Assembly: GCF_900100765.1 (NCBI RefSeq)
Contig: NZ_FNFO01000003.1
Location: 533,348 to 597,347, forward strand
Length of the DNA: 64,000 bases
Direction: 5' to 3'
DNA from: Catalinimonas alkaloidigena
GTDB taxonomy: Bacteria; Bacteroidota; Bacteroidia; Cytophagales; Flexibacteraceae
Under the pieces are notes generated by a model. That model did no database searches and had not been told where the DNA came from. It saw only the letters and a list, made by a program, of their open reading frames with translations. The first letter of the stretch is position 1, and each line of letters begins with the position of its first letter. The position numbers and the translations under genes are program-made. Below, piece by piece: positions 1-5,162 of the stretch.

Positions 1-718
1 CCGCCGGTCCTCCCCCGATAATCACCACGTCGTAGATTTTATCAGACGCGCGGGCGTTCAAGCCCACTTTTTCCGCCACCTGCACGGGCGATGGCGACGT
101 CAGCACGGAGCCGTCGTCGAAGAAAACCGCTGGGAGTGCTTTGCGCTCCACCTGGCCCAGCTTCAGCAACTCGTCGGCTTCCTGTTCGTTTCGCTCCACA
201 TCGACCCACCGGTACGGGATCAGGTTGCCGGCCAGAAAATCCTTCACGGCGTGCGATTTGGGCGAGTACTGATAGCCCACCACCTTGATCCCCTCAAAAT
301 CGGGGCGGTAGCCCGTTTGCCATTCGTCGAGCAGATCGTCGAGCACCGGATACATCTTCTCTTCCGGCGGGTCCCAGGGTTTCATCAGGTAATAGTCGAG
401 TTGCACGTCGTTGATGCCTTTGATGGCCGCTTCGATGTCCGAATAGGCCGTGAGCAACACGCGCTTGGCCTTGGGAAAAATGTCCCGCGCCTTTTCCAGA
501 AATTCCACGCCCAGCATCTCGGGCATGCGCTGGTCGGACAGAAACAGGGCGATTACTTCGTTTTTCAGCTTGAGCTCGCGCAACGAGTCGAGCGCTTCCT
601 GCACCGAGTTGGTATTTAGAATCCGGTATTTGCTCCGGTACTTCGACCGCAGATCGCGCGTAACAGCGCTCAAGACCTGCTCGTCGTCGTCGATCGCGAA
701 AATAATGGGCTTTTTCAT
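1..718 (-). CDS. Fused response regulator / glutaredoxin-like / thioredoxin-disulfide reductase, 3' end outside window
   Basis: The visible 239 codons begin at an ATG whose ATGA overlaps the stop of the upstream kinase gene, so the two are translationally coupled. Residues 1-125 are a complete receiver: acidic triad IDDDE, phospho-Asp in LFLSDQRMP, Thr in LLTAYSD and Lys in YLMKPWD. Residues of roughly 140-220 resemble a glutaredoxin/thioredoxin-like fold (VVGYQYSPKSH, then LPAVFFDDGSVLTSPS), but the usual CxxC position reads SPKSH and has no cysteine. At the window edge an FAD-binding Rossmann motif starts (VVIIGGGPAG), as in thioredoxin reductases. Fused regulator/thioredoxin reductase proteins are known from annotation, and their biology is poorly defined. 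I infer that phosphorylation by the kinase encoded next to it controls a flavin disulfide reductase, linking redox control to a two-component system. The reductase CxxC lies outside the window and cannot be checked. Confidence 0.9.
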   Translation of the reverse strand, partial: MKKPIIFAIDDDEQVLSAVTRDLRSKYRSKYRILNTNSVQEALDSLRELKLKNEVIALFLSDQRMPEMLGVEFLEKARDIFPKAKRVLLTAYSDIEAAIKGINDVQLDYYLMKPWDPPEEKMYPVLDDLLDEWQTGYRPDFEGIKVVGYQYSPKSHAVKDFLAGNLIPYRWVDVERNEQEADELLKLGQVERKALPAVFFDDGSVLTSPSPVQVAEKVGLNARASDKIYDVVIIGGGPA

Positions 719-2157
719 GCCGTTTTTTCCTTCTCCTGCGAAGGGGTAGAGGTTGAATTCGATTTAGCTGCGACGGGAAAGCACAGTTGAAAGGTAGTCT
801 GGCCGGGGGCTGAAGTGACCTGAATGGAAGCCTGGTGCTGCTTCAAAACGCGTTGCACGATGTCCAGCCCCAGTCCGGTGCCTTCTCCCATCTTTTTTGT
901 GGTGAAGAACGGCTCAAAAATACGACTCTGGATGTCTTCCGGAATACCGGTACCGTTGTCCGTCACTTCCACGCGCACAAACTCACCGGCGGGTTCGGCC
1001 GAGATCTGCAAAACGCCGCCGCGCTCCTCCATCGCATCGACCGCGTTGTCGATCAGGTTCGTCCAGACCTGGTTCAATTCGCCGACGGCCGCGTTCACCT
1101 GGGGCAGGTTTTTGTCTAACTCCGCTTTCAACTGAATGTTTTTGGATTTCAGCTTGTGCTTCATCATCACGAGCGTGCTACGCAGCCCTTCGCGCAGGTC
1201 GATCGGCTCTTTCTCGTTCGTGCGGTCCATGTGCGTGTAACTTTTGATCGAACCCACCAGTTGGGAAATGCGCGCTGAGGCTTCCTGCAACTCGCGGGTG
1301 AGCCGCGTGGTTGCCAGCACGCCTTCCAGCCAGGCCATGACGGCGGGAATCGCTTCCGACGGAAAATCGTCGAGCAGCGCCTCCAGATCGTCGGGCGCCA
1401 GGCCCGCCTGCACGAGCGGCTCGGCCAGGTCGCACCCCGCTTCCACACCGCGCTCTTCCAGCCAGTCGGTCAGTTCGTCTTCGCGGCTCGACCGCTCCAG
1501 CAAGGACAGCGACGCGGGCTCGGTCTCCAGCTTGTGCTTGATCAGCGTACAGATGTTGTGCATCTGGTCGGACGAGAGTGAATAGCGGCCGAGTTGGGCC
1601 ACGTAGTCGGGCAGGTGCAAAATTTTCTTTTCCAGCTCGGCGGCCGTCCGGCGCATGGCCGAGGCCGGGTTGTTCAGCTCGTGCGCCAGACCCGCCGAAA
1701 GTTTGCCGAGGGCCATCATTTTCTCGCGCTGTTGCTGCGTTTTGGTGCCCTCGCGTACCCGGGTTGTCATCACGGCGACCAGCCGCTGCGTCAGTTCCTG
1801 GCTTTTCTGTTCCATCTCCTGAAAATGATCCCGGTGCAGAGCCAGCACCTGAGAAGGAATCAGCGCCTGACCGTCGCCGGTGTAGTTTTTCATCCGGCTG
1901 TAGGGCAGCACGCCCAGAATGGAGCCGCGCTCGTACGTGCCGATAGGCATGGCTTGCCCGCCAATCTTCAGCACCAGGTGAATCTCGCCTTCCAACAGCA
2001 CGAACAGGTCGTCGGCCGGGTCGCCTTCCTGAAACAGGAACTCGCCTTTCGCCAATTCTATCAAGCGCGCTTCTGACAGAAACCACGTCAGAATATCGTC
2101 GGGAAGTTCTTCGAACACCGACACGGCACGCAACGCATCAGGGGTAATTTCAGCCAT
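715..2157 (-). CDS. Cyclic-nucleotide-binding-domain sensor histidine kinase
   Basis: This soluble kinase of 480 residues has no membrane segment. Residues of about 10-125 form a cNMP-binding/CRP-like domain ([20 protein letters not shown]). A DHp helix follows with the phosphoacceptor in [18 protein letters not shown] (His159). The C-terminal HATPase shows the N box ([10 protein letters not shown]), G1 (DNGTGIP), F box (FEPFFTTK) and G2 ([10 protein letters not shown]). The start is placed at the MAEITP methionine; a start 9 bases upstream (MCLM) is also open. The stop overlaps the start of the receiver-thioredoxin reductase gene by four bases, so the two are very probably a cognate pair. 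The ligand cannot be predicted: CRP-like domains may bind cAMP, c-di-GMP, haem or nothing. Confidence 0.92.
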
Positions 2158-2221
2158 AAGACACAAGGGAAAGGGTGGAAAAGTAAGTTCGCGATTCGCC
2201 CGGAAGCGGCCAAGTACTGTG

Positions 2222-2260
2222 GGGCAGCCCTCGCGTCTGTACGAGAGAGGGGCCCTGCCC
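2222..2260. other. Strong hairpin between divergent signalling genes
   Basis: GGGCAG at 2222-2227 pairs with CTGCCC at 2255-2260, and CCCTC at 2228-2232 pairs with GAGGG at 2247-2251, leaving a three-base bulge and a 14-base loop. The hairpin lies in the 201-bp divergent gap, 65 bases before the kinase start. No T-tract follows on either strand, so a simple terminator is unlikely. It could be a leader structure of the kinase mRNA or an operator. Confidence 0.5.
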
Positions 2261-2358
2261 GTTGACCTTCATCAGGTTTTTGTGTCGTCCTCCGGCGGTC
2301 GGGGTAACGCTCGTTTGCGTACCGCGTACATAGTGAGGAAGCTTAAACCCACAAAACC

Positions 2359-2754
2359 ATGGATATTTTTTTAACTGTTGACCACCCAATGCTGCTCGGC
2401 GGCCTGATTAGCCGCGTGGCTATGGCCGAAGGGCTCAAAGTGGTGGGCTCGGCCTCCACCGCCGAAGGTACGCTCGAATGGCTGCAGAAACATCCGGTCG
2501 ACCTGATCGTCATCGACGATAAAGTACCCGACCAGGAGTACCACCAGTTTCTGAAAGCCGCACAACGCCTTTGTCCGCACGTCAAGCTTCTGCTGATGGG
2601 GCAGGAAAAAGACCCGCTCGAAGTGGAAAAACTTCTGGCGCAAGGGTTGAGTGGCTACATGCTCCGGCAAGATGCCCACGACCGTCTGGTAGCGGCCATT
2701 TACGCCATCGGTCAGGGCGAACGTTACCTGAGCCCGCAACTGCAGTCCCGCTAG
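2359..2754 (+). CDS. Stand-alone degenerate receiver protein of NarL/LuxR type, no HTH
   Basis: The 131 residues align well with the receiver of NarL-type regulators (TVDHPMLLGGLISR at the start, SGYMLRQD and GQGERYLSPQL at the end), and the protein stops where the linker to the LuxR-type HTH would begin. The likely phospho-Asp is kept (LIVIDDKVP). Other key positions are altered: the N-terminal acidic pair reads VD instead of DD, the conserved Thr/Ser position falls in LLLMGQE, and the conserved Lys is Arg in YMLRQD. It may be poorly phosphorylatable and act as a phospho-independent adaptor or decoy for the kinase encoded divergently 200 bp away; that partnership is inference. It converges on the MFS gene with one base between the stop codons. 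Confidence 0.85.
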   Translation: MDIFLTVDHPMLLGGLISRVAMAEGLKVVGSASTAEGTLEWLQKHPVDLIVIDDKVPDQEYHQFLKAAQRLCPHVKLLLMGQEKDPLEVEKLLAQGLSGYMLRQDAHDRLVAAIYAIGQGERYLSPQLQSR

Positions 2755-2755
2755 G

Positions 2756-4036
2756 TTACGCCTGGTCGGAGACCGACGCCACGACCGCTCCTGATTCGGG
2801 CTCGCCGGTGGCTGCTATGCCTGCCGTTTCGGGACGGACTTCGTGATCCACTACGCGAAGCTGCCGCCCGGCAAAAATGGCCACCACAGTACAGGCCACC
2901 GCTAAGTAGCCCACCCAGTTGTAATGCGCCAGCGTGCCGTCGGCCCGTTCGACCACAATTACCCCCGCGATAAACGAAGAGAACCCGGCCGCTAGCTGTT
3001 GTACTGCCGAGTTGATGCTCATGAAGCTGCCCCGGTTCTGCGGCCGTACCGTGGAGGTAATCATCGACATGGCCGGAATCATGCGGCCGCCGCCACAGAC
3101 GAAAAAGAAGGTCGTGACGATCAGCACAGGCACGATGCTCATGGCAGGCATGTTGGTGATGAGCAGGAGCGGCAGCAGGTTCAAAAACATGAAGATCGTG
3201 AAGATCCGCTTTTGCCCGTAGCGATCCGCCCACCGCCCGATGACGGGCGACGTAAAGATGGTCAGCGCCCCGCCACACAGGTAAATGTAGGTCAGTTGCT
3301 GTTCCGTAAACCCGACGTTGCTCACCATGTAGGGCGAGATAAACGGGATGACGGTAAACTGCCCCAACATCAGCAACACCATAAACAACAGTGCCCGCAG
3401 CTGATTCGGGTTCTCCAAAACAAGCGAGAGGGCTTCCATCGGATGCGCCTTCGGGGCCGAGGCGTCCCGCAAATGCCCGCGCAACGTGGGTACGTAGAAG
3501 ACGATTCCCGCCGTCATCACTATGCCGAACCCTCCCAGGAAAAAGAACGGAGCATGCCACGTGAACAAGGTCGCCAGGTACAACCCAAACGGCACCCCGA
3601 AGACCGACGCCGCCGAGAAGGCCATCATCACGATGCTCATCGCGCTGGCCCGCCGCTCGACCGGAAACGCATCGCCGACAATGGCCAGCACCAAGGCCCC
3701 CAGCACGCCGCCGAACGCACCGGTCAGGCAGCGCGTCACCAACAGCAGCTCGTACGAAGGGGCCAGCGCACACAAAACCGTTCCGACCGTGAACCCGATG
3801 TTGAGCCACAGCAACGCCGCTTTCCGGTCGAACCGATCGAGGAAGAACGCCCCGGCAAAGCCGCAGATCCCCGCCGAGAACGTATAGGAAGACACCACAA
3901 GGCTGAACTGCCGCGGGTCGATGTCGAAGAGGCGCATCAATTGCGGCCCCAGCGGCATCATGATCATAAAATCGACAATATGGGTAAACTGGACGGCCGC
4001 AAGCACCGCCAGCAGAAAGTATTCTTTTCTGGTCAT
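2756..4036 (-). CDS. MFS transporter
   Basis: This is a 426-residue integral membrane protein with about 12 hydrophobic segments. The loop between TM2 and TM3 carries the MFS signature in the form FFLDRFDRKAALL, and a second copy in the middle reads IGRWADRYGQKRIF. The family exports or imports small molecules by proton-driven antiport or symport; it resembles the drug or arabinose efflux (YdhP/AraJ-like) branch. The substrate cannot be predicted. It is a single gene, convergent with the receiver gene downstream and divergent from the ABC operon. The overlapping long frames on both strands here are GC-driven shadows, since only this frame is continuously hydrophobic. Confidence 0.9.
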   Translation of the reverse strand: MTRKEYFLLAVLAAVQFTHIVDFMIMMPLGPQLMRLFDIDPRQFSLVVSSYTFSAGICGFAGAFFLDRFDRKAALLWLNIGFTVGTVLCALAPSYELLLVTRCLTGAFGGVLGALVLAIVGDAFPVERRASAMSIVMMAFSAASVFGVPFGLYLATLFTWHAPFFFLGGFGIVMTAGIVFYVPTLRGHLRDASAPKAHPMEALSLVLENPNQLRALLFMVLLMLGQFTVIPFISPYMVSNVGFTEQQLTYIYLCGGALTIFTSPVIGRWADRYGQKRIFTIFMFLNLLPLLLITNMPAMSIVPVLIVTTFFFVCGGGRMIPAMSMITSTVRPQNRGSFMSINSAVQQLAAGFSSFIAGVIVVERADGTLAHYNWVGYLAVACTVVAIFAGRQLRVVDHEVRPETAGIAATGEPESGAVVASVSDQA

Positions 4037-4277
4037 AGCAAGAGGGAAGTAGGAGTAAAGCGATGTATACGGGTGGGGCTATACAAAAGTAGAAGAAAGC
4101 CTGCACTTTCCTGCTTCCAGCACCGCGCACCGCCCCCGGCATCGTTTCCGTTCATCCTATAGGAATACCTCCAATCCCACAAATTGTTCGACCACGGACA
4201 ATCCGCGCTTGGTCATCCGGCCCGATTTCTTTTCTTTGGATCGTTCTGCCTTTTGATTGACACTCATAAACTACCGT

Positions 4278-5162
4278 ATGGAATTACGCATACAACACCT
4301 CTCCAAGACCTATCCGAATGGCGTCCAGGCGCTGAAAGACGTCACGCTCACCATTCCGCAGGGGATGTTCGGCCTGCTGGGGCCCAACGGTGCGGGCAAG
4401 TCGTCGCTGATGCGCACGTTGGCCACCTTGCAGGAAGCCGACACCGGTTCGGTCACAATGGGCGACATCGACGTGCTGCACGACAAAGACGCCGTGCGGC
4501 GCGTGCTGGGCTACCTGCCGCAGGAGTTCGGCGTTTACCCCAAAGTGACCGCCGAAACGATGCTCGACCACATCGCTACGCTCAAGGGCCTCACGCAGCG
4601 CAAAGAGCGCAAGGAAATTGTGGACGCTTTGCTGCAAAAGGTGAACCTCTGGGACGCCCGCCGCAAGAACCTCGGCACCTACTCGGGCGGGATGAAACAG
4701 CGCTTCGGCATCGCACAGGCGCTGCTGGGCAACCCCAGGCTCATCATTGTCGATGAACCCACCGCCGGGCTGGACCCCGCCGAACGCAACCGCTTCCACA
4801 ACCTGCTCAGCGAAATCGGGGAAAACACGATCGTGATTCTGTCGACTCACATCGTGGAGGACGTCAGTAACCTCTGCCGCGACATGGCGATCATCTGCCT
4901 GGGCGAAGTGCTGCTGACCGGCAACCCCGCCGAGCTGGTCGCCTCGTTCCAGGGCCAGATCTGGCAAAAGGCGGTCGACCGCAGCGAAGTGCCCCAGTAC
5001 CGCGAACGCTACCGCGTCATTTCCACGCGCATGTTCGCCGGCAAAACGGTGCTCCACGTGCAAAGTGACGTGCCACCCGAAGGCTTCGACCCCGTCCAGG
5101 CCGACCTGGAGGACGTCTACTTCGCCACCATCGCCCAGAAGATGGATGTGGTGACGGTTTGA
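4278..5162 (+). CDS. ABC transporter ATP-binding protein (ABC-2 type)
   Basis: This 294-residue ATPase shows Walker A GPNGAGKSS, the Q loop (LPQEFGVYP), signature YSGGMKQR, Walker B with D-loop (LIIVDEPTAGLDP) and the switch His (STHIVED), all in the first 200 residues. The C-terminal 80 residues form the extra domain typical of ABC-2 exporters. The start is placed at MELRIQHLSK; a start 21 bases upstream is open but adds residues foreign to the family. Its natural partner is the permease/M1 peptidase gene downstream, from which it is separated by about 360 bases holding a truncated four-helix-bundle ORF. It should energise that permease at the inner membrane. The substrate is unknown. Confidence 0.93.
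   Translation: MELRIQHLSKTYPNGVQALKDVTLTIPQGMFGLLGPNGAGKSSLMRTLATLQEADTGSVTMGDIDVLHDKDAVRRVLGYLPQEFGVYPKVTAETMLDHIATLKGLTQRKERKEIVDALLQKVNLWDARRKNLGTYSGGMKQRFGIAQALLGNPRLIIVDEPTAGLDPAERNRFHNLLSEIGENTIVILSTHIVEDVSNLCRDMAIICLGEVLLTGNPAELVASFQGQIWQKAVDRSEVPQYRERYRVISTRMFAGKTVLHVQSDVPPEGFDPVQADLEDVYFATIAQKMDVVTV

Follow-up and report, generated by a model that had tools for sequence, protein, structure and literature searches.

Response regulators that carry a receiver (REC) domain and a pyridine-nucleotide oxidoreductase domain have been grouped as a "TrxB" class in Streptomyces coelicolor, where kinase and regulator are listed together as SCO7297-SCO7298 (PMC9739842). The same class has been applied to cyanobacteria (PMC9953108), and a REC-thioredoxin reductase has been termed "Mycobacterium-like" (PMC5847659). 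In the portions available, these three sources classify, and make no mention of a missing CxxC, a glutaredoxin-like (Grx-like) spacer, a CRP-like kinase or a UBP zinc finger (zf-UBP); the available portion of PMC8945050 mentions neither a receiver nor a cyclic-nucleotide domain. A literature search, with most subscription papers outside its coverage, returned no experimental study of the REC-thioredoxin reductase (TrxR) architecture and no paper joining zf-UBP, bacteria and thioredoxin reductase.

Several other proteins resemble parts of the regulator analyzed here. Low-Mr TrxB has the same two-domain FAD/NAD(P) fold, with 26-37% identity across the TrxR structures listed, but the regulator lacks the CxxC and has a receiver and a Grx-like domain added. 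AhpF, which passes electrons via cysteines, likewise joins a thioredoxin-fold N-terminal part to a TrxR core (4o5q had the top Foldseek E-value), whereas the regulator lacks both cysteine pairs and its N-terminus is occupied by the receiver. The protein annotated on plasmid records as "Cyclic nucleotide-binding domain-containing thioredoxin-disulfide reductase" shares the Grx-like and TrxR-fold core; its CRP-like domain is fused directly, with no receiver, so that one-component control there stands against two-component control here.

The window, the whole stretch of 64,000 nucleotides of Catalinimonas alkaloidigena DNA that was analyzed, encodes the kinase and the regulator on the minus strand within bases 1-2157. 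The kinase starts with ATG at 2157 and stops at 715 (an in-frame TTG at 2166 is an alternative start that would add three amino acids). The regulator starts with ATG at 718, is open through base 2 and thus runs off the window edge; the whole protein of 554 aa is encoded at G000:C3:532404-534065 (G000 being the window's genome), with the remainder left of the window, which itself spans G000:C3:533348-597347. The features of the locus are:

715-2157, minus strand: soluble histidine kinase, 480 aa (ORF translation, Pfam; predicted model with mean pLDDT 88.3)
1804-2133, minus strand: CRP-like (cNMP_binding fold) N-terminal sensor, kinase residues 9-118 (Pfam cNMP_binding, 1.1e-13)
1894-1908, minus strand: LPYSR motif, kinase residues 84-88, in the phosphate-binding-cassette stretch (kinase alignment)
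1681-1683, minus strand: predicted phospho-donor His159 in HELNNP (His in 36/36 aligned kinases)
1372-1572, minus strand: helical insertion that separates the two long dimerisation helices, kinase residues 196-262 (predicted secondary structure)
769-1080, minus strand: HATPase_c domain, kinase residues 360-463 (Pfam, 8.6e-26)
715-718, minus strand: ATGA shared by the end of the kinase gene and the beginning of the regulator gene (sequence)
2-718, minus strand: regulator (receiver, Grx-like and TrxR-fold parts), N-terminal 239 aa of 554 (translation and genome sequence left of the window)
365-703, minus strand: REC domain, regulator residues 6-118, with D11, D12, D62, T90 and K113 (Pfam Response_reg, 1.1e-12)
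533-535, minus strand: predicted phospho-acceptor Asp62 (regulator alignment, 98 members)
65-289, minus strand: Grx-like domain without cysteine, regulator residues 144-218 (Pfam Glutaredoxin; predicted model)
2-34, minus strand: start of the FAD-binding part (YDVVIIGGGPA), regulator residues 229-239, continuing outside the window (translation, Pfam)

A scan of the locus for sigma-70 promoters and terminators gave nothing above the shuffled background, Rfam gave zero matches in window positions 1-5000 at E up to 0.1, and a stem-rich stretch at 2200-2345 folded no better than its shuffles (z -0.33 and -0.64).

The completed regulator matched three Pfam families: Response_reg (residues 6-118), Glutaredoxin (153-202) and Pyr_redox_2 (229-540), and its AlphaFold model had a mean pLDDT of 88.5. 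It was aligned with relatives into a set of 98 members, consisting of the window's sequence, 19 sequences from a sample of the phylum and 80 from a genome collection, minus two duplicates; the collection sequences are the best 80 of at least 584 stretches that encode a relative, and the set is therefore biased toward close relatives. The receiver has the acidic pocket, phospho-accepting aspartate, threonine and lysine of a response regulator, and D62, T90 and K113 are each present in 97 of the 98 regulators, with a gap in the remaining one (one row of the alignment is a fragment). With a receiver and a pyridine-nucleotide oxidoreductase domain in one chain the protein falls into the TrxB class, whose S. 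coelicolor example, the listed pair SCO7297-SCO7298, to judge from the available descriptions, likewise combines these domains with a histidine-kinase partner. The Glutaredoxin match is weak (26.2 bits against a cut-off of 22.9), and the predicted model has a thioredoxin-like order of strands and helices in this domain. Neither the cysteine pair nor the single N-terminal cysteine of a glutaredoxin or mycoredoxin is present: the would-be CPxC reads SPKS, a CxxC occurs within the domain in 0/98 regulators, and position 152 is S, N or A. The initial annotation of this DNA had been right about the ATGA overlap (718-715), the intact receiver (all five residues are kept) and the cysteine-free Grx-like domain, as well as about the start of an FAD reductase: the GGGPA motif is interrupted by the window edge, and the reductase domain continues beyond it.

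Extension to the left completed the FAD motif in the genome sequence. Both Rossmann motifs are kept and near-invariant among the 98 regulators (GGGPAG at 235, GGGNSA at 378 and GDVR at 523), so that the expected NAD(P) site was found; the redox-active CxxC that had been anticipated along with it was absent. The regulator reads AATT at residues 361-364, directly before a glutamate that is invariant (E365, 98/98), and a cysteine occupies position 361 or 364 in 0/98 regulators. A phmmer alignment sets the cysteine pair of a Methanosarcina TrxR against the GAATT residues, and, as a positive control, a separate 312-aa TrxB of the same genome keeps its CAVC. The idea of the regulator as the sole TrxR of the cell was also rejected. 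With no cysteine at the CxxC positions, the description of the output as a disulfide reductase is not supported. Among the NCBIfam models, TIGR01292 (thioredoxin-disulfide reductase) scored 239 bits, below its cut-off of 343.45, and TIGR04018 (YpdA / bacillithiol disulfide reductase) scored 62.8 bits, below 339.9. Over residues 225-554, which the fold comparison spanned, the predicted model best matched 5mh4, a Lactococcus TrxR in the flavin-reducing conformation (Z 36.0, 1.7 Å over 302 residues), and more poorly 5mjk, the same TrxR in its flavin-oxidising form (Z 31.1, 7.3 Å over 301); this preference is a hint about conformation from a prediction that drew on the family alignment. Lacking the defining cysteines of a TrxR, the enzyme probably serves another redox function.

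The kinase combines a phospho-histidine box (HELNNP) with a HATPase_c domain (residues 360-463), which identifies it as a histidine kinase. The HisKA match stayed below the Pfam cut-off (17.4 versus 26.9) and covered the first half only, which may be due to the helical insertion between the dimerisation helices. The fold comparison of the kinase spanned mainly residues 141-464, with the CRP-like part outside it. The sensor is a cNMP_binding match at residues 34-117 (51.3 bits, cut-off 27.5), and the top solved structure by sequence was DNR (2z69). Its fold is that of a cyclic-nucleotide-binding domain, whereas the glutamate and arginine of the cassette are replaced: in alignments to the second domain of PKA RII-beta and to 2pqq, Val83 occupies the position of the cassette glutamate and Tyr92 that of the arginine. 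Among 36 aligned kinases a glutamate is found at position 83 in seven and an arginine at position 92 in none, with an uncertain exact register owing to a gap column, and none of the 36 combines Glu83 with an arginine anywhere at 90-94. Sensing of cAMP was rejected, and of the label "cyclic-nucleotide-domain kinase" the CRP-like fold stands while literal nucleotide binding is not supported. The pattern [LI]P[FY]SR occurs in 26/36 kinases (P85 in 29, S87 in 26 and R88 in 26); this looser form is quoted because the strict motif G.[IVL][TS]G.[LI]P[FY]SR fits 17/36 and misses the window's own kinase.

The distribution of the two genes was analyzed across genomes. The full-length fusion was found in 20 of 148 genomes sampled from the phylum, and in three more the Grx-TrxR core occurs with no receiver, joined in G103 to a CRP-like domain. 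Of the 148 genomes, 19 have a close kinase (E up to 1e-70), and every one of these carries the fusion too; in the twentieth fusion genome (G086) the adjoining kinase has PAS domains in place of the CRP-like one. Overall, a kinase adjoins the fusion gene at 19/20 loci of the phylum. For the 98 aligned regulators, 84 loci have a related kinase no more than 1.3 kb away, on the same strand at 80, and 13 loci show no kinase; three of the 13 (L106, L130 and L133) are bordered on one side by under 1.6 kb of sequence. The kinase gene is located upstream in the Bacteroidota and their allies (54/59) and downstream in other phyla (21/39). The short spacing seen in the window is not family-wide, with a kinase-regulator gap of five bases or less at 20/98 loci. 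In one genome (G133) the kinase is on another contig, and at one locus (L061) it is divergent from the fusion gene. The hosts include members of the Bacteroidota, Cyanobacteria, Chloroflexota, Acidobacteriota, Actinomycetota and Deinococcota, plus Caballeronia. The kinase/flavin-enzyme pair is a real, widespread bacterial signalling pair: the search of other genomes that had been proposed as a check found it conserved (84/98 loci, 19/19 co-occurrence), and the domains together with the conserved pairing uphold the idea of a kinase-regulator pair in which an enzymatic output replaces the DNA-binding domain. Its rarity had been overstated, since a named response-regulator class exists and the genome collection has at least 584 stretches coding for a relative, not all of them necessarily receiver fusions.

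A second type of wiring was identified in the window's own genome, where a 543-aa CRP-Grx-TrxR fusion (G000:C9, L063) also has no CxxC at the TrxR site. Its CRP-like part shares 25% identity over 99 aa with that of the kinase (E 2e-5 in a single comparison). Two such CRP-type reductases occur in the 148-genome sample. One kind of sensor is thus connected to one kind of enzyme in two ways, directly and, seemingly, by a phosphorelay, which supports the notion of regulation of the enzyme by the receiver. The link between a CRP-like input and a reductase output, singled out in the initial annotation, is therefore retained through both the kinase and the direct fusion of the paralogue, with the word "disulfide" removed.

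The genes surrounding 24 loci (20 fusions and four others) were compared. Of the neighbors that recurred, a TrkA_N antiporter was present at 11 loci, a UBP zinc finger and an Abhydrolase_2 esterase at eight each, and a DsbA-like and a glyoxalase-fold protein at seven each. The top NCBIfam matches of the antiporter (KefC, YbaL and KefB) were all below cut-off (KefC 131 versus 752), as was catechol 2,3-dioxygenase, the top match of the glyoxalase-fold protein (31.8 versus 320.2), so that the labels Kef-like, esterase and dioxygenase are putative and stand for Pfam and sub-cut-off NCBIfam matches. The antiporter is present in 15 of the 148 phylum genomes, all within a single family (f22); in 11 of them the fusion lies no more than 4 kb away, and four have no fusion; the link is almost confined to this family and may reflect one ancestral event. 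One genome (G042) keeps the gene set and lacks the kinase pair. A UBP zinc finger above cut-off was found in 16/148 phylum genomes, and in 11 of the 16 it lies within 1 kb of the pair (in G138, of the bare Grx-TrxR), nine of these 11 belonging to the antiporter's family f22; in G000, G042, G085, G099 and G122 it lies elsewhere in the genome. Among the 98 aligned loci the zinc finger occurs at 33, within 300 bases of the regulator at 18 of them, and the antiporter at 13. In Streptomyces fungicidicus fusion, kinase and UBP zinc finger follow one another as overlapping genes, and at an Acidobacteriota locus (L147) an antiporter-TrkA_N-zf-UBP fusion protein adjoins the regulator. The Deinococcus and Caballeronia records examined contain fusion and kinase, with no UBP gene annotated nearby. 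In the window, no antiporter, esterase, dioxygenase or UBP gene was recognised beside the pair; a search of its genome for a close homologue of the antiporter found none (best E 1.7e-9), and its zf-UBP gene sits on another contig.

Taken together, the locus is probably a two-component system whose output is enzymatic, with a CRP-fold kinase acting through a receiver on a cysteine-independent NAD(P)H flavoenzyme with a non-dithiol acceptor. The CRP-fold domain of the soluble kinase would sense a signal that is probably neither cAMP nor cGMP, and the conserved residues and the gene pairing suggest that the kinase autophosphorylates on His159 and that the phosphate then moves to Asp62 of the partner protein, whose receiver is joined through the cysteine-free Grx-like spacer to the low-Mr TrxR-fold flavoprotein. 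The phosphorylated aspartate might then alter where the Grx-like domain sits or how the two reductase domains are rotated, and NAD(P)H would reduce the FAD, from which electrons could flow to a non-dithiol acceptor such as a quinone or other electrophile, or an electron carrier. The absence of CxxC in all aligned members, together with the kept FAD and NAD(P)H sites, makes phospho-control of hydride flow to such an acceptor the most likely function. The kinase probably turns the flavin enzyme on or off.

The loss of the CxxC also fits a flavoprotein that only signals. The protein would then chiefly sense redox state or NAD(P)H, or serve as a scaffold, without real catalysis, and receiver and flavin state would together set a conformation that is read by a partner, candidates being the UBP zinc-finger protein or the antiporter. 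We regard this as unlikely. The missing catalytic cysteines agree with it, as do the recurrence of zf-UBP as a neighbor (11 of the 16 phylum genomes that have it, and the fusion-kinase-UBP order of S. fungicidicus), its fusion to TrkA_N antiporters and the precedent of KefF, described as both an enzyme and an antiporter activator (PMC10224563); however, the near-invariant FAD and NAD(P) positions suggest turnover, and no such partner adjoins the window's locus.

Phosphorylation could instead gate a thiol-disulfide reductase that uses Cys369 or the cysteines of a partner protein in place of the CxxC, a relaxed version of the disulfide-reductase output in the initial annotation. Cys369 is the commonest cysteine (73/98 regulators) and could be a source of some thiol chemistry, the fold is that of TrxR and TrxR proteins were the top database matches, and a DsbA-like gene lies beside 7 of the 24 loci. 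This is improbable all the same, since no cysteine is invariant among the 98 regulators, the CxxC positions are never cysteine, position 369 is phenylalanine at all seven loci with the DsbA-like neighbor and the same genome encodes a bona fide TrxB. A CxxC at other places in the reductase part was observed in 4/98 regulators.

A receiver-controlled, TrxR-type ferredoxin/flavodoxin-NADP oxidoreductase (FNR) that feeds an electron-carrier pathway might share the fold, and one such FNR is described as reducing quinones in vitro (PMC9137726). The predicted model matched the FNR 8c16 with Z 29.5 (3.0 Å over 303 residues), below most TrxR structures, TrxR and AhpF outscore FNRs by sequence, and no ferredoxin family was found among the subset of neighbors scanned with Pfam; this explanation is very improbable. 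Chance adjacency of two unrelated genes, to which the 13/98 kinase-free loci, the split pair of G133 and the divergent pair of L061 might point, is refuted as a general explanation by the 84/98 adjoining loci and the 19/19 co-occurrence across several phyla and is next to impossible.

For the preferred reading, a flavoenzyme controlled by the kinase, the neighborhoods of the relatives offer a lead on the substrate. KefF is described as the quinone-reducing flavoprotein partner of KefC (PMC10224563), and MhqE and MhqD as a quinone-induced dioxygenase and phospholipase/carboxylesterase (PMC6798810). By analogy with these, and from the neighborhoods, the window's system perhaps has a role in electrophile or quinone stress. 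The loci of family f22 resemble KefC-KefF in placing a TrkA_N antiporter beside an NAD(P)H flavoprotein, together with a zinc-finger protein, but KefF is described as an FMN protein of another, quinone-reductase-like fold (PMC10224563) and the window's genome has no antiporter neighbor. A broader proposal would be that a wide branch of annotated "thioredoxin-disulfide reductases" consists of cysteine-independent NAD(P)H flavoenzymes with activity set by N-terminal switches that can be swapped (a receiver, a CRP-like domain or no switch at all), the receiver being phosphorylated by a CRP-fold kinase in the two-component form, and that these act with a UBP zinc finger in many bacteria and a Kef-like K+/H+ antiporter in some as a phosphorylation-gated counterpart of KefFC in quinone and electrophile defence; in this full form it is doubtful.

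The architecture itself was already known; the correction of its presumed chemistry made here applies to each of the 98 aligned members. The class is named for thioredoxin reductase, yet its chemistry cannot match that of TrxR. The recurrent UBP zinc finger, which is also found fused to TrkA_N antiporters, provides a concrete candidate partner. If phosphorylation gates hydride flow, the pair would give bacteria a direct two-component route to redox or electrophile metabolism that bypasses transcription.

Besides the histidine kinase and the receiver-reductase regulator, together the pair, the analysis recorded the following features (L, locus; G, genome of the phylum sample, G000 being that of the window; C, contig).

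Window 1372-1572: roughly 67-residue helical insert inside the kinase dimerisation domain
Window 2359-2754: receiver-only protein of the NarL/GacA type, divergent from the kinase
L006:6817-8436, just left of the window: hybrid-kinase-like gene, assigned by eye
L007:5795-7189 (G000:C1): a further member of the family to which the window's kinase belongs
L063:6110-7738 (G000:C9): CRP-Grx-TrxR fusion paralogue
L147:3637-5772: antiporter, TrkA_N and UBP zinc finger in a single protein
L182:3971-6097 (G085): antiporter, TrkA_N and UBP zinc finger in a single protein
L183:5874-9965 (G042): UBP zinc finger, 174-aa protein, 223-aa protein, antiporter and glyoxalase-fold protein, consecutive

A profile scan recognised no DNA-binding domain in the receiver-only protein, and the hybrid-kinase-like gene is convergent with the regulator, their 3' ends overlapping by 35 bases. 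The kinase insert is also found in aligned relatives. The second kinase shares 45% identity with the window's kinase and no match to the regulator was found on its stretch of the contig; its two large neighbours resemble membrane permeases, as judged by eye.

The CRP-Grx-TrxR paralogue is followed after approximately 200 bases by a ferritin-like gene and preceded, at approximately 2 kb, by a LytTR response regulator; both families occur again in G138 (L066), 5-6 kb from a Grx-TrxR core that carries neither receiver nor CRP-like domain.

The L147 antiporter fusion adjoins a receiver-reductase, and the L182 fusion adjoins zinc-protease and RimK-like genes; a homology search of G085 found no receiver-reductase fusion at E <= 1e-60. 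The G042 row lacks the kinase-regulator pair, and its 174-aa and 223-aa proteins match the DsbA-like and esterase genes of the relatives in size. The pair may therefore be an add-on to a pre-existing gene set.
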